DNA of 64,000 nucleotides, taken from Lineolata rhizophorae (Eukaryota > Ascomycota > Dothideomycetes > Lineolatales > Lineolataceae). The stretch lies in contig MU001679.1 of the NCBI GenBank assembly GCA_010093515.1, positions 265,474 through 329,473 on the forward strand, given 5' to 3'. Both the position numbers and the translations under genes were made by a program. The notes beneath the pieces were generated by a model. It had not been told where the DNA came from. It searched no databases and saw only the letters and a program-made list of their open reading frames with translations. Within the stretch, counting starts at the first letter, position 1. Each line of letters starts with the position of its first letter. Positions 18,305 to 55,088 of the stretch are shown one piece after another.

Positions 18305-20138
18305 TCAACTCTCAGGCCTTGCCATCGACTTCGCAATTGGATGTAGCGCCTCCAAGCTATTCCGGCGGCCCCAATTCCTCGGCTGACGCTTGAGGAAGGC
18401 CCCCACAGCACCAAGATACCCTTCGTGCCGCAGAAAGTACGCTTGCTTCTCGCCCTTGGACCAAAAGCGAATGGCGTACGAGAGCGTGTTCATGGTCTGG
18501 CGGTGACCGCCGATGAAAGACCCACCAAAGTATATATGGCCCAGATTGTGCTTTTCAGCGTGCAAGTACGCGATTTGGCCGATGTTATTGCTGAACCAGG
18601 CGAATGAGCCATCAGCATAGATGCAGTAAAAACCTGGTCACACATTTCGGCTTCGTGCAGCTCTCCCTCACTGGGGCTAAATGGGGACTCACCTCACAGC
18701 GTACAATAGGCTCCTACTAATATCCTCCGCCCTGAACATCCCCAATTCCTTTCCTCCTCCGCCATCTCCGTTCGCTTCTCCTTCTCTCGCATCTCCGTTA
18801 GCTAGTCCGCCATGGTCTTCCGCATCTCGCTCCGCCTCCCTCTTCATCTTATATACCTTGCCAAAACTGCTCGCAATCGTCGTCGACTTAAGTCCAATCT
18901 TGCCGTACCCTTGGCCGTAAATGTCGCCGACCAGCATGTCGACGGCTGTGTTGTCGCCCCGGTCCGACATACGCAGCATCTCATCAAAGTTGCGTGCGCC
19001 GGTGAGCAGGGACAGAAGGCCCCAGAGTGTGCCGCCGCCGAGAGATGTGCCACCGATACGCTCGTACTGGCGAGGACCGGAAACTTTTACCATGGAGACG
19101 CCCGAGCCGATGTTAACGAGGAGGTACGGGTATATATCCGGGCGAGCGTCGACAAAGTGCATCGGGTCTGATTCAGTATAGGTGAAAACTTCGTTGGGAA
19201 TTTCGGTTATGAAGAAGTCAAGGCCTGAGTACGTTAGCGACCAATGGCACAAGACTCACTCCGCGATCCCTACGAACCTATAATTAGACACTCCATTTCA
19301 TCCTCCCGCAACACTTCCACACCCAGAGCGTCTCTAATCTTGTCGTAGTATTTGAATGCACCTCCACCTGTTGCCATAACGCACAGCTCCGGTCCACCGT
19401 GCCCATTCGCAGCATGATGGTCGCGCTGCAATCGCCGCATGAACTCGACGCACGCATCGATCTTGTCCGTCTCGAATTTTAAGAAGTTGAGCCGCCCGCC
19501 GAGCTCTACCTCGGGCTGCTTGCTCTTGTCCGTACCAGTTTCGCGCGAAAAATATACGAGCTTGGCGAGTGATCCTCCGATCTGAAATAGAGCGCGCAAA
19601 TAGCGCGCCGTTAGCTTCCGCGCGTAGAGAAAATAGAGTTTTGACCTCAACGAGAACCATGACTCCGCTGGGAAGGTGCACGCCATATAAGGCCAGAGTC
19701 GCCAGCTCCCATATGGCTCAGCAGCGACGAGAAGAACCCCACCTACGTACGTACATCAACCGCGATATGGCTCACGACCGCCGTGTGGTTCGGCAGTCGG
19801 ATATCCTTATTCTCATGCTTGAAGTCCTCGTCCACCGTCGAGCCTCCGGGCGTCGTTGCCTCGTCCTCGACTATGAAGGCGCCCTGCACATTGATGCGCA
19901 CCGTTCCGGGGTGTGATATCGCCGACTCTATCCGCGCAGGGTCCGTGGCCACCGCTGTGCCGGCCAATTGAGGCCGTTTGCCAGCCGCATGGCCGCCGCC
20001 GCTGGAGGGCAAAGAGGTGGTGGAGCTGTTCGCGACGTCGGAGGGGATCGCGATAGGAGGGGCGTCGCGGGCGGCAGGAGTGCCGGAGGTCTGGGCAGCG
20101 TCACGGGTCGCTTCTTCCGCACTCGAGCCGCCCGGCAT
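18305..20138 (-). CDS. pantothenate kinase (CoA synthesis)
   Basis: Exons 20138-19755, 19581-19278, 19224-18693 and 18590-18305 encode 501 residues. The eukaryotic type II (fumble-like) family is clear: the phosphate-binding strand [13 protein letters not shown] begins at ~128. It is followed by [15 protein letters not shown], the active-site block [31 protein letters not shown], and the C-terminal [20 protein letters not shown] and [25 protein letters not shown]. It phosphorylates pantothenate, the committed step of CoA synthesis (yeast Cab1). The N-terminal ~75 residues are a disordered Ser/Ala/Thr-rich extension. A low-complexity insert of ~35 residues (rich in Gly, Glu, Asp) lies before the last intron. 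Introns are 173, 53 and 102 nt, each with a good branch site; every join restores a conserved motif. Confidence 0.9.
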
Positions 20139-21289
20139 CTTGTGCGGCTAGGTTGATATGCGCCGGGGCTGTATCCCGGGCAGCGGCGCGGGTCGCGCTC
20201 GAGGCAACGAAGAGACGAAGGATTCCCAAGTCCCGTTCTCGCGCGAAGAAAAGAGAAACCCCGAAGACGAGAGCGATGCGCTGTCGCGTTCTGTCGATTG
20301 ACCGATGACAAGACCGCGCTCGGCGGGGCGTAGCTACGGACGCGCCAGCTAGCAAAAGCGGTCACCGAAAATTGCTCGTCTCTCTTCGCGAGCCGTGCCA
20401 GCTTCTGACTCAGGCGGAAGAGGCCTGGATGTGAGGGCTTGACTGTTCGGAGTACGGAGTGCAGCTCCTCGCGGTGGCGGCTTATCCGTTTTGCATCTTT
20501 TATACAGGCGGCAAATGCAGCCGAAGCGCTCCGTCAGAACGTGTAGGTTAATTGCAACGGTGCGCCGGGGTGGCGGCCGAGGTCTGCTCCATCCGCCCGG
20601 CTCTTGTGTCTTTGGTGATCGGTCGGCTCCAAGCTTCGCCCGAGGTGTGTCGGCGGTGCCCCACGGCTCTCACCGGGCCGCGAGCCAAGCCCGTTCTTAC
20701 TGTGCGCCTCGGAAAGCCTCGCACCACCTCCGTTTTGGTATCACTTGTTTCAGCCTTATTTTGCTAGAGCAATCGAAATTATGTCACGCTTTGTATGTGC
20801 TCTGTAGGTTGCTATCGATAACATGCGGGGGGGGCACGATGCCCGCCGCCTGCAGCTGCGCGAACTGTGCTGCGCGCTAACCAAATGCGGCAGACTGTGA
20901 GACTCGCCGGCAGCTCACTCCGCGCTTCACATCCACTTGAGGACGAGGAGAGAGTCAGAATAAGTGGGTTAAAAACTGGTATGCGCTAAGAGGCTTGCAT
21001 GATAGTAGCACCGCTTTCAAGGGGACGTACTGTTCTGTGGTTTACGATGTGCTGATTTCCGGACGATCCGCACTGGATATCAATCAAACAAAAACAGAGC
21101 TGAACTGGCACATTATGCGGCTGATAATGTAGCCAAGGAACTAAAATTCCTTTTTTCAGATTGTTGATTGCACTTAAACAGGTTTGAGTCTCCTGGTACA
21201 AGGTGGAAAGCTCAAAGTGCATTACCCGTAGTTAAATTGCTCCATTTAACGCCTGGATATTTACTCCAACTTATCCCTGCAAAGACAGC
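20139..21289. other. intergenic, divergent promoters
   Basis: Positions 20139-20700 are GC-rich promoter DNA of pantothenate kinase, with a TTCGGAGTACGGAGTGC element at 20446-20462. The right part is AT-richer and leads to the kinase-like gene. No gene is seen. Confidence 0.5.
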
Positions 21290-22699
21290 ATGTACTGGAA
21301 GTCGTACAAGATCAAGGCCAATGCGATGACACGAGAACTATACGTGCTCCTCCAAGATTCCAAGGGGTCCTGCCGTTTACTCTCCAGCTTTGCAGAAGAC
21401 GTTCAAGACCCGGAATGCCTCGAAAGTCGACTTCTTTCTCATTTTTTGGACTCAGCAGATAGTCCTAAGCTCAGTTCATTCAAGTCTAAATCCTTGGCAG
21501 AAGATGCAATTCATGAAGCAGTCGAGGAAGCCTGGATTCGCGGTGCCTACACGCCTCAAGGCATCAAGCCGCATTCAATCCTTCGGATCAAGTCCAGCGC
21601 CACCGGGTTATTGGGGGTGCTCGTCAACAACCTGGATGATTACAATACATTCTACTCCTATCTGAAGCCACTTGATCAGTACTTCAACAAGTCAGTTCAA
21701 GGAGAAGGCGGGTACCTGACTCCGCCTTCCGAGGTCGATCACATTGAATACCGCACTGTCACGTACGTCCGCGCCTTCGACAGCTATCGCAGTACAAGTC
21801 GCACTGCCAAGATCGGCTCAAGCCAGGACATCGTCGTCTACAAAGGCATTTCCTTCCTCGACTTCCTCGCATTCGGCGAAGGCCGCTTCCGCGAATACGT
21901 GAACGCCATCTACCGAGAGCATCACCTCATCTCGTCCGTGATCCCACCCCATCCAAACATCATGGCGGCACCTAAGGCGTACGTCACACTTGATTCAACC
22001 TTCCCCGACGGCTCCACAGTGCCGCGGATCTGCGGTTGCATCTTCCCGTATTACAACAACGGCTCCCTTGCAGCTGTCCTCAATCGTAGCGTGGAAGAAC
22101 GGACCAGGATCTCTTTGAAGAGGAAAGCTAAGTGGTGCTATCAGCTGGTGTCCGCGATGGCGCATGTGCATTTCGTTGCCAGTGCTTGGCATCAGGACCT
22201 TAAGCCGCCGAACATCCTAATTGACGACAACGACGACCTCCTGCTCATCGATTGGGAGCAAGTGGGACAAGGTGGCTTCTTCATAGCGCCGGAATCGGAT
22301 GGCACGTTTGATGTTAGCACTGTCGAGGAAGATGGCGGGAAGCAAAAGTTGGTGTACACGCGCTACGAAGGGCCTAGAAGAGTCAACAACACACTGAGCC
22401 ACCCAGAATGGAACGTCCTTCCGACATGGAAAGAAGAGCACCCTAAAGCAGTTGAGTTGGCGGAAGTGCACAGCACCGGTGCAACCTTATACTTGCTTCT
22501 CGAGCAAGTGCGGCTAGTCCACGTCGAAGGAGTGAGCGACTATTCCGCCGAGGAAGTACGTTGGTCGGAGTGGTCTGATGATATTCCGCAGTCTTGGAAG
22601 GAGTCCATCACAAAGTGCAGAATGCTGGACCCCAACGAGAGGATTGGCATGATGGAGTTGCTCGAATTTTGGAAGACGGAATATGGCAAACTTAGCTAG
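21290..22699 (+). CDS. divergent protein-kinase-like protein
   Basis: A single-exon ORF of 469 residues. The C-terminal two thirds follow the protein-kinase fold: a candidate lysine in IVVYKG (K185), a helix-C glutamate in YREHHLIS (E210), a hinge-like IFPYYNNGSL, and the catalytic loop HQDLKPPNIL (D303, K305, N308). The metal-binding DFG is replaced by DWE (D321), which keeps the essential aspartate. I see no clear glycine-rich loop. The N-terminal ~150 residues have no recognisable domain. Catalytic residues suggest it may be active, but the substrate is unknown. Such divergent, often single-exon kinases are expanded in Pezizomycotina accessory gene sets. The first ATG was taken; MTRELYV at residue 13 is an alternative start. 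Confidence 0.75.
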   Translation: MYWKSYKIKANAMTRELYVLLQDSKGSCRLLSSFAEDVQDPECLESRLLSHFLDSADSPKLSSFKSKSLAEDAIHEAVEEAWIRGAYTPQGIKPHSILRIKSSATGLLGVLVNNLDDYNTFYSYLKPLDQYFNKSVQGEGGYLTPPSEVDHIEYRTVTYVRAFDSYRSTSRTAKIGSSQDIVVYKGISFLDFLAFGEGRFREYVNAIYREHHLISSVIPPHPNIMAAPKAYVTLDSTFPDGSTVPRICGCIFPYYNNGSLAAVLNRSVEERTRISLKRKAKWCYQLVSAMAHVHFVASAWHQDLKPPNILIDDNDDLLLIDWEQVGQGGFFIAPESDGTFDVSTVEEDGGKQKLVYTRYEGPRRVNNTLSHPEWNVLPTWKEEHPKAVELAEVHSTGATLYLLLEQVRLVHVEGVSDYSAEEVRWSEWSDDIPQSWKESITKCRMLDPNERIGMMELLEFWKTEYGKLS

Positions 22700-24118
22700 G
22701 CTTGGGTCTGGATAGACATATATCGCCGCCTGTAGATCTGAGCTACGGAGTGTGAATTATGATATAGTTTAAGATTTATGACATGGTTGACAAGCCGGTT
22801 ATCAATGAACTTTTCGAGTCGTTCCACTGCGGGAAAGTAGCAGTTCTACATACCGGAAAATGTGAAACAGTTACGCCTATAAGCTTGCAAAAATGGTAAC
22901 CTCGAATACACACCTAAAAGGAACAAAGCCTATACAATGAAATTCAAGACTCCAATTCCTCGTGTTCTTTGTCGTTCTCTATATCGCGATTCGGTGGCGC
23001 TGCTCTCCTTTACACATCTTCCCGCCACCCCAAGTCATTCCTGTAACCACTATGTCACCGAATCCGACAAATAGAAGGAGGTGCCTTTTGGTAAAAGGTG
23101 GCTCGACGCTTTCCGCCCTGACCAGGGCCTATTCTGCCGCCGATAATGGAGATTGCTCCTTTAGGCCTAGCGTAGAGCTATTCCTGTTTCATTTAGGTTC
23201 ATACACCGCAAAAATAATAGGATAGTTACAGCATAACCGTTTTTCATTATTGCTATCCAGAAGAATTAGTTCGTTAGGCCGCAGAGAAGCCGTCGGCCTA
23301 GACGTAGTAATGGCAAGGATAGAGCTTGTCGGGAATAGGCCAGTCTGTCGAGCTCCACAGAGTATACGGTGGCAAACAGAGTGTATACGAGGTTGAAGTT
23401 CGAGGTTGCAGAGTGTAGGGGAACCTGCACTTCTGCGATCTGTGTACGCTGTGCGCTGAACAGGGGCCGGCATTACCTTTGGCCCGGAGAATCACGTGAC
23501 TACTGATGCCATACATGATATCCACGACACAGTCGTTAAAAAGGCCAGGAGAATAGTGAAAGCAATCTTGAAGCGAATTTGAAAATAATAATCATCTTGT
23601 TGAAAGAATATTAGATTAATTTCAAATAACTTCTCTGGTTGCATCGATTGGTAACTGGATATGAAGGCTACCAGAAAGTTATATTCCAACCCTAACCCTA
23701 ACCCAACCCTAACCCTAACCCTAACTCCCTAACCCAAACTTCCGGTGTCCGTTCTAGGAACTATGGGCGCAACACAAAATCAAGCGAGATGCCTGATACA
23801 TTTGCAAAACAATCGAAGCAAAGCAAGGCGTAGCGCGAATCGATTAGGATTCGTTACACGTACAGACTGTTATCTTATCACCACGTGATGTCGCTCATTC
23901 ATATCCTCACAGACTCGGTTGTTTGTTTTGGTTTTGCCAACTGTTCGCAATTCCAACTACCACCATTTGCAATACTCGACATCATAATACTTGCGTCTGC
24001 GAAAGCCGTCGGTGTCGCGCGCAAGCTCCCTCCGCTCACTGCACTTTCATTCTACCATTTTGCACATCCTGCACACTTTGCGCGCATAGCACACTCTATC
24101 GATACAGCGCTGTCCGAG
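22700..24118. other. intergenic with telomere-like tract, promoter of the telobox gene
   Basis: Positions 22700-23640 hold no supportable gene and AT-rich patches. Then come the telomeric repeat (23688-23735) and a CACGTG E-box at 23882-23887; another, within TCACGTGA, lies at 23493-23498. Positions 23888-24118 are open in frame with the downstream gene, so a longer N-terminus is possible. Confidence 0.55.
23688..23735. repeat. interstitial telomeric repeat (CCCTAA)n / telobox array
   Basis: A 48-bp tract of AACCCT units in which six exact CCCTAA hexamers can be counted, with one shortened (CCCAA) and one lengthened (AACTCCCTAA) unit. The + strand is the C-rich telomere strand, as at the left end of a chromosome whose interior lies to the right. 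It ends 383 bp before the ATG of the telobox-protein gene. Confidence 0.92.
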
Positions 24119-27100
24119 ATGCCGCCCAGGCGCTCGAACCGGCAGCGCACCGTAACCCCAGAACTTGCGCCGACGCGCTCTACTCGGGCGACGAGAAGCA
24201 CGAGCAAGGAGCCCTCCGAGGGCGCGCCGATGCCATCTGGGCGGTCGACTCGAAGTACACGACAGCGCGCAGCCAGCGTCGTGAGTGCGGACAACGCTGA
24301 TGCCCCACTTGCGCGCACCTCGCGGACAAGGAAGAAGGCTGCGGAAGGTGCGTTCTTGCAAGTTCTGTTCGATATGTTGCCTTTCCTTCAATTCATCTTC
24401 AACCCCACAATGCCAAATTCTACTTCCTGGTCACCCCTCTCTAGCTCTTACCATCTTCCACTTCCGGCCCCGAACAGCCGTCCTTCCACGCGGTCATTCC
24501 ATTTTTCAGAGACCTTGAGAAAGTGTGTCTTTTCTTCATCGGTACTAACAGCAAGATGTTAGACCTCTCCACCGTTGAGGAAGAAGTCCCTATTTCAGCG
24601 CGCCCAGATGCGTCCACGGGAGAACCTGTCGCCGTTAGCCCTCGCAGGCAGTCAGGTGATTCACACCGTCGCCGCTCGGAAGGGCGGTTGTCCAATATGT
24701 CTGGTACTACTGCTGCTTATTCGGCAGAAGATGCCGCGGAACTCAATCCGGACGCTATGCTGTCTTCCCTTGCTAGCTTGAACTACGAGTCCGACTCCGT
24801 GTTGCGATTCCTAGCGCCGGCTGAAATTAGAAGCGAGCACCTGGTTCAAATCTGGAGCGGCCTTCGAGTGCCCAACTCCGCCCTCCGCAAGCGCCTGAGG
24901 GTCCGCGAGCGGTCGTTCAAGATGCCCTTGGAGAAGTTCGGAAGCCACGAATACATTCGTACCGACGCTGTAGTTCGGTCTCTGCTTAGCACCAAGGAGC
25001 CGTCGTCTCGCGAAGAGCTGTGGCGCCCGGATGGCATCCTACAGAAAGCGAATCTCGCCACCTTCGCGCACAACATCGCATTAATCGAGCCTGACGATCC
25101 AGACTTAGTCAAATTCGTTGATCAACTAGACCGGCAATTCCCCGCGCCTTTTGCGTCTTCATTCCAGTCTGTTGGTACCGGCATGTCGCTAAAACCCGGC
25201 CAGTCGAGACTCCTCGATAATACACTCGCGCTTGCGCTCGATATTCGGACGCAGCTAGCCGTCCGGCGACTCATCATGGAGAAGCCTCACGACCAACCCG
25301 ATAAGTCCATTGATGAGCAGCTCGCCATGATGTTCTTCGTCGTCCCCAACGAGGGCCTTGATGCGGTGCTAGATGAAGAGGAGTTCCCCAACGCGCTCGA
25401 CGTCCGTGGCTGGGGCGTTCCGGACTTAGCCGGCCCCAAGCTTTGGCCTGCCCAGCAGGAAGATGTACGCGAGCGCGTGCGCGAGATGCGCGACCTCATC
25501 GAGAGCGCGGGCAACGATTTTGCCGCCGCACTCGTCCGCCAGTACGATTGGCGGCGCTTTGCGACCCAGGCCATCGCGTGGGCCCGCCTACGCCGTGAGG
25601 AGATTGACGTCCAATATCAGCGTGTCGGCGGCTTCGAAGACGCTATTGATCGGCTGAGTGAGGAAGTCGTGACAGCTCCTAGTCAGAAAAGCTCGTTCAC
25701 GTCGGCGGTGGGCGGGGAGGCTCCACCACCCCCTCCGGCCACCACCCAGACGACGCCTAAGTCGATACTAAAGAATCGCACGTCGGCCGCGATGAATGAG
25801 TCGCCAACTGGTAGCGCGGCGATGCGGCACGGGGGTAGAAGGTGAGATTGCACTTGCTTTTTGAGAATCTTACGTAATGTTGTATGGACTCTAATCTTCC
25901 TCCAGTTTTGCTTCTGCCAGCAGCATCGCCCGTCTGAAAGCCCGTAAAGAGCGCCTATCCGGCACGTCGGGCGGCTTGCCTTCCTCCTCGGCGCCCGTTG
26001 CAACCAACACAACCACTGCTACCAGCAGCGCTATCCAACAGGAAGAGGAGCAGCAGCCCGAGATTGCCATGGACCTTGAACCGTACGAGCCGCCGCCGGC
26101 GCAACCTCCACCGCAAAGCTCGGCCCCCAAGAGTACCGCACCCCAGAGCTCCGCCGGTCCGCGCTCCACCCAAGAGATTCTACGCCAATACAACGAGCAC
26201 CTGCGCCAGGACAAGGAGAACCGGCGCCAGGGGCGTCGCTCTGCGACCCCAACCGAAAAGCAGCAGCAGCAGCCCCAAGGCCGGCAGGGGAGGCGCTTCA
26301 TCGACGCGCAGCAGGGCGCCACGCGTCTCGACTTTGACGACGGCTTGAGCCAGGCGACCACCCAAACGACCAGGCCGGCAGCTCCCGCCGCTCCCGTCGC
26401 CGTCATGGCGCGCAACGCGCCCGCGTCGAGCCGCTCGAGGGCCGAGACGAGACCGGTGTTCATCCACCCGCGGCTGGAAGAGCGTCGGGACGAGGAAGAT
26501 GAAGATGAAGAAGATGAAGAAGAAGACGGCTTCGAAACGGACACGCGCGTCGTCGACGTGGCCGCGAACAGGCACGCGGTTGCCCCGCCGGCGGCCCCGC
26601 CCTCGCGGCGCCGTCAGCTCCCCGCTTCCACCGCGGCCAGCGACGACGCCGCGGCGGCCAAGCGGCGGCGGATAGGCAGCGGTGCCGCCGGCCCCGCCGC
26701 CCCCGTCGCCCCTGTCGTGGCGCGGCGCGTGTCGCCGGACGCGGACTTCGCACCCGTCCAGAAAGCAGCGGCGGAGCCGGAGCAGGGCGGCACGACCAAT
26801 GACAGCGACGAGGAGGACCTGCGGCGGTACCGGGTGGTGAACCACAAGGGGCGGCAGCAGGCGGAGGTGGAGCGGCGGCGGCGGGCGGGGGCGGCGGAGC
26901 AGGCGCCGCGGACGCGGAGCAAGTGGACGGACGCGGAGACCAAGGCGCTGATCGCGGGGCTGAAGCAGTGCGCGGGGGCGCCGTCGTGGGCGTGGATCAA
27001 GGAGCTGGACGGCGTCGCCGGCGGGGTCCTGGCGGGTAGGGATCAGGGCGCGGTGAGGGATAAGGCGAGGAATATGAAGATGGATCATATTAAGTGAGTT

Positions 27101-27278
27101 TTGCGTCGTCTTTTGCTTTTTCTTCTTCTTCTTCGCGTTCGACTGCGTGGTCCTCGCGAAGAGGCGCGTCCGCGGCGCTGGCTGACTTGGGCGTAGGAAT
27201 GGTACTCCCGTCCCGCACTATCTCGAGAACGTGCTTGTGCCGGAGTCTCACCTGAAGAAGTTGGGGGCGTTGAGGTAG
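24119..27278 (+). CDS. TRF/Taz1-like telobox (Myb) telomere-binding protein
   Basis: Exons 24119-24347, 24563-25841, 25906-27093 and 27197-27278 encode 925 residues. The C-terminal Myb domain (~840-899) reads RSKWTDAETKALIAGLKQC...SWAWIKELD...AVRDKARNMKMDHIK. The DKARN motif in its third helix is the telobox signature of TRF, Taz1 and Tbf1 proteins, and S. pombe Taz1 has IRDKARLIK at this point. It would bind TTAGGG repeats in the nucleus. The N-terminus is basic (MPPRRSNRQRT). A folded-looking helical region (~130-420) might be the TRF-homology dimerisation domain, but that is inference. A disordered middle has a run of Asp/Glu near residue 680. Introns are 215, 64 and 103 nt; the first uses donor GTGCGT and acceptor GTTAG shortly after a TACTAAC branch, the only acceptor that keeps the frame. 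Tbf1-type function is the main alternative. Confidence 0.8.
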
Positions 27279-28594
27279 GAGGTTGGCTATCGGGGCTCCG
27301 GCGGTCGTTCCTCCACGTCTGAGGATTCGACCGGCGGGAGGCAGGTGAAGCTCTGGGCTTGCGGGTTTGTTGTACGACATAGTGTTTGGGAGCTTTGTGC
27401 GGTTATAGTCTTTCTTTTTTTTTTTTTTTTTCAAGTTCCCTTTTTCCGGCGGGTTGCCTGTTGGGTTGGTAATGTTCTCCCCGGGTTCAGGCCTGAGGCA
27501 CGGGGTGAGTGAGACCGTGGACATTGGCTCGAGGATGGGTTGTGTTCTGCCTTTTTGCTTTCATGCTCTCGTGTCGGGGCCATGGGCGGCTCGGACGTGT
27601 TTTGTACTGTGATACCCCATGGTTGGAGTTGCTAGGATAGGCGGCCCGATGGCTACGGGGCCATACGGATGGGTGTTCGGCCGTGGATGGTTCGGTTTGG
27701 GCTAGTTGGTCTGTTTCACCGATGTGTACTCTGTATTGTGCGGTTGTTTCTGTCCTGTTTATTTCCGGGCGCGTTTGTCTGGCCGAAGCCGCGTCCACCA
27801 AGGACTTAAGGCGCTGGCCGGAAGATAGCGGAGGTCGAGCCCAGCCGGCTCGATCTGGTCTGGCCCAGCTGTACAGGGGCATGGGCTCTCGCGCGTTCTA
27901 GCGTTCTAATATGCGCCTGGAGTCCCAGCCCCACGCGGCCAGATCCTCCTCCTCCTCACAGCCTGCAGAATTTCCGACCTGGTAATTGAAGCAACTGCGC
28001 TGTTCTGAAGCCTGGGAGCCCAGGTCGCTGTTCAATTGATGTCCGCCAAGCGGTGACCGTCTGGCGCAGCGTGTATGTAATGGCGCGGCGGCGATAGGCC
28101 CGACATCGGCCGGCTGCGGGGCAAATCGGCCGGGGCCTGAGGCCGGGCCAGGCCTGGCGCGTGTGGAGAACCCCCGGCGGGCGCGCTCGGCGCCTTCGGC
28201 GCTTTCACACCACCCGCAGCGCACGCTCGCGGTGACTCAATCGCCGGCCCCGATTCCCTTCCCTCCTGCGCCTCCGCCGGCCTCGATCCTTTCTCTCTCC
28301 CACACACGCTCACACACTTCCCACCAGCAATTGGTGACCTGCGTCGGCCTCTCCACTCCTCTTTTTCGTTCTGTCCTTCCGGTGGTCGCGTGGCCAACGA
28401 TTCGAAGTTCTGCGACTCGCTTGTGTGCGGCGGGCGCTCTCAAATATTTTTTTTTCCCTCTTTGTTTGCAAAAGCGTCTCTCCTCCTCCTTCGCCGCCTC
28501 CGCCTTCGCCCTCTCCCTGACGTCTCTCTGCGCAGCCGCAAACATCGATCATCACCGCCACCGCCGCCGGCAGCCAAAGTAACTCCTGCCCGCC
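27279..28594. other. intergenic, ILV2 promoter
   Basis: No gene is supported. The right third is the ILV2 promoter: a TGACTCA site at 28233-28239, then C/T-rich tracts (~28240-28330 and 28440-28520) typical of strong fungal promoters. Confidence 0.5.
28233..28239 (+). promoter_or_regulatory. Cpc1/Gcn4-type site TGACTCA upstream of ILV2
   Basis: A perfect TGACTCA lies 356 bp before the ILV2 ATG. Cross-pathway control (Cpc1, the Gcn4 counterpart) activates amino-acid genes through this sequence, so general amino-acid control of ILV2 is likely. A single heptamer can occur by chance. Confidence 0.6.
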
Positions 28595-30983
28595 ATGCTG
28601 CCCGCGCGCCGCGCCGCCGCCACGGCGCGCACCTGCGCCCTCCGCCCCTCCTCGTCCCCGTCCCCCGTGCCCTCCACCGTCTCCTCGCGTGCCTTCTCCG
28701 CCACCGCCGCCCCACGCGCCGTCTCGCCCTACCGGCGCGCCGGCGAGCAGAGCGGCGTCGTGAGCCGCACGGCGGTCAAGGAGGCCGCGAAGCGGGGCCA
28801 GAGCACGTCGGCGGCGTCGGCGGCCGGCGCCAAGGCGAAGGAGAGGCCGATTCCGAGCCCGGCGTTCAACCGCGACGATACGCGCTGGGGCGATGTGCAG
28901 CCGCTGAGGCCGTTCCGGCAGCCGGAGATGGACCACAGCTTTGTGGGCATGAAGGGTGGGGAGATTTTCCACGAGATGATGTTGCGGCTGGGGGTGAAGC
29001 ACGTTTGTATGCGCACCTTTTTTTTCTCTGGCCGTTCCTCTGGGATTGGCGGGGGTGAGGGAGGGGGGGAATTCAGACGTAAACAGAGGCTAACCCAAGC
29101 CGTGCAATTGTCGTAAAACAGTCGGCTACCCCGGCGGCACCATCCTGCCCGTCTTTGACGCTATATACCAGTCCAAGCACTTCGACTTCATCCTGCCCCG
29201 CCACGAGCAAGGCGCCGGCCACATGGCCGAGGGCTATGCGCGCGCCTCGGGCAAGCCTGGCGTCGTGATCGTGACGTCCGGGCCGGGCGCGACCAACGTC
29301 GTGACGCCGATGCAGGACGCGCTCATGGATGGCACGCCCATGGTGGTGTTCTGCGGCCAGGTTCCCACCACGGCCATCGGCTCTGACGCCTTCCAGGAGG
29401 CCGACATGGTGGGCATCAGCCGCGCCTGCACCAAGTGGAACGTCATGGTAAAGAACATCGCCGAGCTGCCGCGGCGCATCAACGAGGCGTTCGAGATTGC
29501 CACGACGGGGCGGCCTGGCCCGGTGCTGGTCGACTTGCCCAAGGACATCACGGGCGGAGTGCTGCAACGAGCGATCCCCGTGAGTAGCACGCTGCCGACG
29601 CACCCTTCGGCCGCTACGCTGGCGGCCCGCGAGCTCAGCCAGCGCCAGCTCGAGGGCGCGATCAAGCGCTCCGCGGACCTGATCAACATCGCCAAGAAAC
29701 CCGTCATCTACGCCGGACAAGGCATCATCAGCAGCGGGCCCGAGGGGCCCAAGCTCCTCAAGGAACTCGCCGACAAGGCCAACATCCCCGTCACCACGAC
29801 GCTGCAAGGGCTCGGCGGCTTCGACGAGCTCGACCCCAAGAGCCTGCACATGCTCGGCATGCACGGCTCCGCCTACGCCAACATGGCGATGCAGGAGGCG
29901 GACCTGATCATCGCGCTAGGGGCCCGCTTCGACGACCGCATCACGGGCCACGTGGGCAAGTTCGCGCCGGCGGCGCGCGCCGCGGCGCAGGAGGGGCGCG
30001 GCGGCATCGTGCACTTCGAGATCATGCCCAAGAACATCAACAAGGTGGTGCAGGCGACGGAGGCGGTCGAGGGCGACGTGGCGGCCAACCTGGCGCTGCT
30101 GCTGCCGCAGGTGCGCGAGACGAAGGAGCGGCCCGAGTGGTTCGCCCAGATCGCCGACTGGAAGAAGCGGTTCCCCTGGGCGTACGAGAAGGAAGGGCCC
30201 GAGGGCCGCATCAAGCCGCAGACGGTGATGCGCGAGATCTCGGACATCGCGGCGCGCCGGGGCAACGCCGACACCATCATCACGACGGGCGTCGGCCAGC
30301 ACCAGATGTGGGCGGCGCAGCACTTCCGGTGGCGCCACCCGCGCAGCATCGTGACGTCGGGCGGGCTCGGCACCATGGGGTACGGGCTCCCGGCGGCCAT
30401 CGGGGCCAAGGTGGCGCGGCCGGACGCGCTCGTCGTGGACATCGACGGCGACGCCTCCTTCTGCATGACGCAGACGGAGCTCTCGACGGCGGCCGAGTTC
30501 GGCGTCGGCGTCAAGGTGGTGGTGCTCAACAACGAGGAGCAGGGCATGGTGACGCAGTGGCAGACGCTGTTCTTCGACGACCGCTTCGCCCACACGCACC
30601 AGCGCAACCCGGACTTCGTCAGGCTGGCCGAGGCCATGGGGGTGCAAGCGCGCCGCGCCAGCCACGTCGACGAGCTGCGCGCGCAGCTCGAGTGGCTCGT
30701 CGACACCGACGGGCCCGCCTTCCTCGAGGTCGTGACCGATCAGAAGGTGGCGGTGCTGCCCATGGTGCCGGCCGGGAACGCGCTGCACGAGTTTCTGGTG
30801 TACGACGAGGGTGAGTGATCCCTGCATGTCCCCTTTCCCCCTTCCCCCCTCCTCCCCGCTTTTCGAATTGCGATGGCTCCCGCACGGCTGGGCTTGGTTT
30901 GCGACGGATGCTAACGTGCGGCGGGTCTTGCAGAGAAGGAAAGGGCGAGGAGGCAGCGCACGAGGGAGCGGACCGGTCGCTGA
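28595..30983 (+). CDS. ILV2: acetolactate synthase, catalytic subunit
   Basis: Exons 28595-29006, 29122-30810 and 30934-30983 encode 716 residues. The first ~80 residues are Arg/Ala/Ser-rich and look like a mitochondrial targeting sequence. The core shows the ThDP-dependent fold: FGYPGGTILPVFDAIY, the catalytic glutamate region HEQGAGHMAEGYARASG, LVDLPKDI, the FAD domain, and the ThDP motif GDASFCMT...VVVLNN followed by EEQGMVTQWQ. It condenses pyruvate (or pyruvate plus 2-ketobutyrate) in valine, leucine and isoleucine synthesis and is the target of sulfonylurea-type inhibitors. The last exon adds EKERARRQRTRERTGR, the usual basic tail. The first intron (115 nt) splits codon 138, and the join gives the conserved HVFGYPGG. 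Confidence 0.95.
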
Positions 30984-55078: not shown

Positions 55079-55088
55079 NNNNNNNNNN
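55079..55088. other. assembly gap (10 N) in a poly-T tract
   Basis: Ten N bases are flanked on both sides by T runs, so the gap most likely marks a homopolymer of unknown length. Confidence 0.9.

Follow-up and report, generated by a model that had tools for sequence, protein, structure and literature searches.

A telomere-repeat tract upstream of a Tbf1-like gene

The locus lies within a 64-kb stretch of Lineolata rhizophorae DNA, which is called the window here. A 1.42-kb intergenic stretch (22700-24118) carries six exact CCCTAA hexamers on the + strand (starting at 23690, 23696, 23707, 23713, 23719, and 23727) and is followed by a gene that begins at position 24119. The hexamers span 43 bp (23690-23732) and are flanked by CCCAA-type units, such that the whole tract covers about 50 bp (approximately 23688-23737). 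Its units are imperfect and the six hexamers are interrupted. A preliminary description of this DNA had placed six hexamers within 48 bp, 383 bp before the ATG; the hexamer count stands, and the lengths are corrected to 43 or 50 bp for the tract and to 386 or 381 bp for the distance, depending on whether the last hexamer or the tract end is used as the boundary.

The downstream gene was modeled manually as an open frame of four exons encoding 925 residues. Exon 1 (24119-24347, + strand) is separated from exon 2 (24563-25841) by an intron at 24348-24562 that has GT..AG borders and a TACTAAC branch-point-like motif. Exon 3 (25906-27093) encodes a low-complexity linker and most of a C-terminal Myb domain, and exon 4 (27197-27278) encodes the end of this domain and carries the stop codon. 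The DKARN residues of the Myb domain are encoded directly 5' of an intron, and its recognition helix reads RDKARNMK, which corresponds to the KDKxRN-like telobox signature.

Generic Myb Pfam models score below their cut-offs in the 925-residue protein. Among solved structures, the closest matches are TBF1 (PDB 8x6d, E 8.4e-12) and SpTrf1 (8ynu, 1.4e-8; 6k5u, 3.6e-8), with identities of 43 and 46% and an invariant DKARN. The Myb domain and DKARN signature noted in the preliminary description are upheld, but the nearest solved structures are those of Tbf1 and Schizosaccharomyces pombe Trf1, not Taz1. When the Myb domain was searched against the 31-Mb genome (E <= 10), the sole match was the gene itself, in two exons. 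Using the solved TBF1 Myb as a genome query, this gene ranked first (2.3e-6), followed by a gene with two Myb domains (0.004).

Within exon 2, TRF (PF08558) is the one Pfam family to appear, as a weak match of 12.7 and 14.4 bits that falls under the cut-off of 25. A Pfam scan of the full 925-residue protein returned no PF08558, and a search of the genome with this family gave no match, with control genomes equally silent, so that it carries no information on this point. The TRF-like region has no match among PDB sequences, and its single-sequence AlphaFold model is unusable (mean pLDDT 35.5). The product is probably a Tbf1-type telobox protein, which is predicted to bind duplex TTAGGG.

Rarity of the repeat cluster

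The CCCTAA hexamer occurs 18 times in the window versus 22.2 expected, and is therefore not enriched overall; the signal lies in its clustering. When the 64-kb window was shuffled 100 times with its dinucleotides preserved, the maximum number of same-strand hexamers per 48 bp was one in 87 shuffles and two in 13, compared to the observed six. For the intergenic stretch alone, 1000 shuffles gave a mean of 0.4 and a maximum of three hexamers. Away from the contig ends the pattern AACCCTAAC is scarce: genome-wide it has 208 matches, about 65 of which are in terminal arrays (reversed control, 295), yet five matches start inside the tract at 23688-23737. CCCTAA arrays are present at contig ends. 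Only five internal places in the 31-Mb genome hold at least three hexamers separated by gaps of 8 or fewer, versus one control match, and the tract upstream of the Tbf1-like gene has the most hexamers of the five. By comparison, 30 loci of Myb genes (about 3.1 kb each, some overlapping) contain at most two hexamers per locus.

The main rival explanation treats the cluster as a neutral interstitial telomere tract left by break repair or slippage, which has no effect on the gene despite its position. Such an origin, which we consider rather unlikely, would accord with the imperfect repeat units and with the existence of ten other internal places in the genome that carry at least two tandem repeats. 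Among these ten, four perfect repeats lie past a transcription-factor frame and three lie between convergent genes; the shorter tracts include one probably in an amidase intron and others just 3' of the stop codons of a transcription-factor frame and a lipase frame, places that suggest no role in regulation. At least two of the ten are promoter-like and reside beside genes without a known telomere link. However, the strongest internal cluster precedes the one clear Tbf1-type gene, and the chance that one of five randomly placed clusters would fall in the 1.42-kb intergenic stretch is 2.3e-4, a value calculated post hoc, once the association had been noticed. The preliminary description had raised the concern that such tracts might be equally common upstream of unrelated genes. 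This does not hold for six hexamers, but finds weak support in the shorter tandem repeats beside unrelated genes.

Several other origins for the tract were considered and rejected. The tract sits at about position 289,160 of a contig of 1,155,957 bp, and this internal location, the interrupted hexamers, and the lack of a long perfect array do not fit a chromosome-end telomere or an assembly misjoin. A subtelomeric duplication was also dismissed, given that the 1.42-kb intergenic stretch matches elsewhere only via an LTR-like part (query positions 636-838) in a search that scored 40 of 69 candidates and skipped simple repeats. A telomerase RNA template is disfavored because the repeats outnumber those required of a template. 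An Rfam scan of positions 20000-30000 yielded a single bacterial match below its cut-off, a scan of viral contigs turned up no relative, and single-strand folding gave no hairpin. The gene for telomerase reverse transcriptase (TERT) was located on another contig (C13:217275-217740).

A very improbable alternative is that the tract acts independently of any Tbf1 feedback, either by forming a G-quadruplex or by weakly recruiting Polycomb-type silencing. A G-quadruplex-type motif does occupy 23690-23735 on the strand opposite the CCCTAA hexamers, but the scan that detected it counted 22 stretches of this kind across the window. Two reports lend the chromatin version some credence: ectopic (TTAGGG)8 in Neurospora crassa induced some local H3K27me2/3 (PMC5752202), and the top motifs under accessible regions of PRC2 domains look like TTAGGG (PMC8214302). 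Nevertheless, the tract falls short of (TTAGGG)8 in length and has more interruptions, and it would be odd to silence a gene expected to be essential; Tbf1 is described as essential in Saccharomyces cerevisiae in PMC4650311.

CACGTG boxes and a solo-LTR-like repeat

The preliminary description correctly located two CACGTG boxes, at 23493-23498 and 23882-23887, and had likened them to the pairing of Tbf1 with Cbf1, which is its partner at the ribosomal-protein promoters of Candida albicans. This analogy fails because the upstream box belongs to an inserted repeat and because the C. albicans-type palindrome was not found in the genome. The repeat is a solo-LTR-like dispersed element (23346-23529) flanked by a 5-bp duplication, CAGTC, at 23341-23345 and 23530-23534. 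It has 45 further matches in the genome, and CACGTG is present in eight of nine examined copies, including the one in the window. As for the palindrome, nine places in the genome carry inverted hexamers with gaps of 0-15, of which none has the six-base gap of TTAGGG-N6-CCCTAA (reversed control, 10) and none is in the Tbf1-like gene promoter. The downstream box stands alone with no evidence of importance, and the window as a whole shows no excess of CACGTG (10 versus 15.7 expected). The LTR-like repeat lies outside the proposed regulatory element; the possibility that the tract is part of it was rejected, since eight other fetched copies lack CCCTAA and TTAGGG and the two features are 158 bp apart.

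A possible self-regulatory circuit

The site to which the product is expected to bind is clustered upstream of its own gene, an arrangement that in this respect matches the self-bound Tbf1 promoter of S. cerevisiae. If the gene encodes the Tbf1 of this fungus, a TRF-like telobox protein that binds TTAGGG, then the promoter tract might serve as a multi-site element to which Tbf1 would bind and thereby adjust transcription of its own gene. We take this to be the leading reading, somewhat more probable than not. The tract, the open gene model, the Myb similarity, and the rarity of such tracts inside this genome are observed, whereas binding, an effect on expression, and its sign are inferred; as to the sign, a homeostatic (negative) loop would be a guess, and activation by exclusion of nucleosomes from the promoter seems about equally likely. 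The autoregulation originally proposed is consistent with the Tbf1-type Myb domain, the strongest internal clustering, and the S. cerevisiae precedent, though it must be stripped of its Cbf1 component. The densest internal telomere sequence fronts the gene of a predicted telomere-repeat binder, and by analogy this gene may plausibly respond to its own product.

Some results count against a broader role. The 600 bp that precede the U3 snoRNA gene and the 3.5 kb around the Tay1-like gene yielded no telobox, and thus a wider Tbf1 regulon is not seen. It is also conceivable, although improbable, that the tract is read not by Tbf1 but by a Tay1-type protein or a zinc-finger TTAGGG binder. The two-Myb gene, which is located on contig C38 and has telobox-like helices, could supply such a factor, but the S. 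cerevisiae precedent concerns Tbf1 at its own promoter.

Under the self-regulation reading, Tbf1 would also be expected on TTAGGG chromosome ends, and occupancy of the promoter could in principle track the free pool of the protein. A more ambitious version, which we hold to be distinctly unlikely, is that the promoter array senses telomere load, with Tbf1 freed from shortened telomeres occupying its own promoter. Such a sensor would allow the cell to match Tbf1 supply to telomere repeat number. To our knowledge, the means by which the amount of a telomere-binding protein is matched to the amount of telomere is largely an open question. If self-regulation is true, a fungus whose chromosome ends bear vertebrate-type repeats, and whose one clear Tbf1-type gene has this repeat in its promoter, would offer a small feedback circuit. 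A search of open-licence literature, which is weak evidence of absence, turned up no filamentous-fungal Tbf1 gene described as having a telomere array in its promoter.

Comparison with known systems

The closest parallel is S. cerevisiae, whose Tbf1 binds at its own promoter and has as its sites clustered TTAGGG motifs with no fixed spacing or orientation, as described by Lavoie et al. 2010 (PMC2834713). Both fungi have a Tbf1-type telobox protein and clustered TTAGGG motifs, with self-binding established in S. cerevisiae and predicted in L. rhizophorae. They differ in that S. cerevisiae has degenerate telomeres and uses Tbf1 at subtelomeres and gene promoters, whereas L. rhizophorae has TTAGGG ends at which Tbf1 is expected as well. 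C. albicans likewise possesses a Tbf1-type protein and CACGTG boxes, but its Tbf1 needs TTAGGG-N6-CCCTAA and its own promoter is not bound (PMC2834713), whereas the L. rhizophorae tract holds same-strand hexamers only. Self-binding is therefore not a universal trait.

N. crassa resembles L. rhizophorae as a filamentous fungus with TTAGGG telomeres and both Tbf1-type (NCU03416) and Tay1-type (NCU02182) proteins. TTAGGG bait captured NCU03416, the Tbf1 homolog, and its direct binding was inferred, cloning having failed (PMC4650311). In the accessible text of that paper the word "promoter" is absent and gene control is not treated. Accounts of human TRF2 (PMC6264879, PMC12483519) provide a further likeness in the idea of competition between telomeres and promoters for a telomere-binding protein. 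There promoter binding is telomere-length-dependent and concerns other target genes in another organism, and it is not self-regulation. If the proposed circuit is real, it suggests that the Tbf1 self-binding found in S. cerevisiae and not in C. albicans extends to filamentous fungi.

Telomere repeats inside the contigs

CCCTAA arrays sit at both ends of contig C1 and at the starts of C4 and C43 in the 31.0-Mb assembly of 48 contigs, in which the window occupies C10:265474-329473 and includes a run of ten N (55079-55088), either an assembly gap or a masked stretch. Because these arrays lie at contig ends, they show that the telomeres of this organism are built of TTAGGG/CCCTAA. As the preliminary description had claimed, the same repeat precedes the Tbf1-like gene, with six exact CCCTAA hexamers on the forward strand (23690-23732) within an imperfect tract at approximately 23688-23737. 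None of 100 shuffled windows contained more than two same-strand hexamers per 48 bp, and 1000 shuffles of the surrounding intergenic stretch (22700-24118) gave at most three in total. The whole window is not enriched in CCCTAA (18 versus 22.2 expected), and the hexamer cluster is not a product of chance composition.

Internal clusters are rare throughout the genome. Tandem hexamer pairs occur at 11 internal places, the tract included, versus four matches for the reversed-motif control. Similarly, at least three hexamers with gaps of up to 8 are found at five internal places (C6:988024, C9:359240, the window tract, C15:856823 and C20:182582) versus one control match. The probability that five clusters placed randomly would hit the 1.42-kb intergenic stretch is 2.3e-4, a value computed post hoc, when the association had already been noticed. 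The sequence AACCCTAAC has 208 matches genome-wide versus 295 for its reversed control. Terminal arrays account for approximately 65 of the 208 (50 among the matches listed, which run as far as C9, and an inferred 15 or so at C43). Inside contigs the sequence is thus scarcer than its control, with approximately 143 matches, as though the genome avoided internal telobox sequences. Five matches start within the tract.

The ten other tandem places were each evaluated in 10-kb stretches by open frames and Pfam matches, without gene prediction. Two are promoter-like, lying approximately 200 bp ahead of a Mit_KHE1 frame (C15:207830) and approximately 700 bp ahead of a Duc1 frame (C42). The C9 place is directly ahead of the main amidase frame and probably intronic, the C7 place is at the end of an Rpn13 C-terminal match, and the C11 place is within an FtsJ-methyltransferase frame. 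Others follow frames: the C20 place is approximately 60 bp past a lipase frame, between convergent genes, and the C35 place is approximately 460 bp past a diphthamide-synthesis frame. The C3 place falls between frames, and at the C26 place neither of the two frames scanned has a Pfam match. A Fungal_trans transcription-factor frame reaches its stop codon approximately 95 bp short of C15:856823-856846, which carries four perfect CCCTAA repeats, the longest unbroken internal run among those listed.

Unrelated genes thus also adjoin short tracts, which keeps alive the main rival explanation, a neutral interstitial telomere tract. The possibility, raised earlier as a refutation, that such tracts are equally common upstream of unrelated genes is borne out in a weak form by short tracts, but six hexamers are found only here; no more than four, and no fewer than two, lie at C6 or at any of the ten other tandem places. 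Interstitial telomere tracts in N. crassa are described as rare and shorter than four tandem repeats (PMC5752202). Relatives of this genome were sought in one viral-contig scan, and none was found.

A structural or chromatin role for the tract is also possible. The tract sequence is a G-quadruplex-type motif, but the same scan found 22 stretches of this type across the window. In N. crassa, an ectopic (TTAGGG)8 is reported to have brought about some H3K27 methylation nearby (PMC5752202), whereas the tract is shorter and interrupted.

The Tbf1-like product and other candidate binders

A manual gene model with GT..AG introns has four exons (24119-24347, 24563-25841, 25906-27093 and 27197-27278) and encodes 925 residues without internal stops. 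If translation began instead at an in-frame ATG upstream (23888), the product would be 77 residues longer, with an extension of improbable composition. The tract lies upstream of both candidate starts. The proposed C-terminal telobox Myb is upheld, since the best solved matches to the last 91 residues are Tbf1 (E 8.4e-12) and S. pombe Trf1 (1.4e-8 and 3.6e-8); the remaining ten of 13 listed PDB matches are S11 ribosomal proteins (E at least 0.26). As to its Myb, the product can be predicted with confidence to be Tbf1-like. A TRF homology domain is only probably present, because TRF (PF08558), the single family in a Pfam scan of the exon-2 region, scored 12.7 and 14.4 bits against a cut-off of 25, and no match was obtained for PF08558 in the full-length product, for exon 2 among PDB sequences, or for PF08558 in the genome, a search in which control genomes were likewise silent.

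Searching the genome with the Myb of the product returned only its own gene, in two exons. Besides this gene, the solved TBF1 Myb detected two places, namely a two-Myb gene on contig C38, at E 0.004 and 0.06, and, weakly, a place on C2 at E 0.05. The C38 product (C38:64613-65197), with two telobox-like helices (IDLKDRFR and DLRDRFR), presumably resembles Tay1/Teb1, and neither CCCTAA nor TTAGGG occurs in approximately 3.5 kb around its gene. The window gene is not among the 32 genome matches listed for a generic Myb search, and 30 Myb-gene loci (approximately 3.1 kb each, some overlapping) contain at most two hexamers per locus and 22 in 93.7 kb. The minimal sample of candidate target promoters comprised that of the Tay1-like gene and that of U3, which has no telobox in the 600 bp upstream. 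A TERT gene was found in the genome. The C2 gene could be the counterpart of a weak second Tbf1 homolog reported for N. crassa (PMC4650311). Reading of the tract by another TTAGGG binder ranks next after a neutral tract among the rivals, because N. crassa is reported to have at least six such proteins (PMC4650311).

The flanking CACGTG boxes

The upstream box (23493-23498) sits in a solo-LTR-like dispersed repeat (23346-23529), whose ends read TG...CA and which is flanked by the 5-bp duplication CAGTC. The box therefore arrived by insertion. This repeat has at least 45 further genome matches at 74-94% identity, one of just 40 bp. Among nine copies examined (eight fetched plus that of the window), eight start with TG, all end with CA, and eight contain CACGTG; the flanking 5-bp duplications are exact in seven, agree at four of five bases in one and are lacking in one. 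By these sequence features, the copies bear the marks of solo LTRs.

The window has 10 CACGTG sites versus 15.7 expected, and the downstream box (23882-23887) is unremarkable. RTCACGTG has eight matches (9476, 9976, 9978, 23491, 23493, 23882, 39440 and 53205) versus 3.1 expected, a count reached by three of 100 shuffles. The region may hold an excess of Cbf1-type sites, because three of the eight (23491, 23493 and 23882) fall at the two boxes. The C. albicans palindrome TTAGGG-N6-CCCTAA was not found genome-wide; nine inverted hexamer places with gaps of 0-15 were found, none with a gap of six, versus 10 in the reversed control. The suggested analogy to Tbf1-Cbf1 ribosomal-protein promoters finds no support, as the upstream box is LTR-borne, the downstream box is ordinary, and a genome-wide search did not find the N6 palindrome.

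Possible self-regulation and known systems

Putative self-regulation of the Tbf1-like gene via the tract is the most likely explanation, in which the product would bind the tract in the promoter of its own gene and, once bound, would adjust its expression. Sensing of telomere state would require both a free Tbf1 pool set by telomere repeats and a promoter sensitive within the range of that pool, and only if both hold could the tract serve as such a sensor, which we consider unlikely.

Published accounts offer parallels. The N. crassa Tbf1 homolog was recovered with a TTAGGG bait in this filamentous fungus with TTAGGG telomeres (PMC4650311), Tbf1 is proposed to be bound by telomeres in Aspergillus (PMC3603654), and a review describes some yeast promoters as kept nucleosome-free with the help of Tbf1 (PMC6410037). 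Tbf1 is reported as bound at its own promoter in S. cerevisiae and as not bound there in C. albicans, and the S. cerevisiae sites are described as TTAGGG clusters whose spacing and orientation are not fixed (PMC2834713). The putative self-binding of Tbf1, inferred here from the promoter tract, would thus resemble that in S. cerevisiae, with the difference that the tract consists of true telomere repeats, the same repeat as at the chromosome ends of the species itself.
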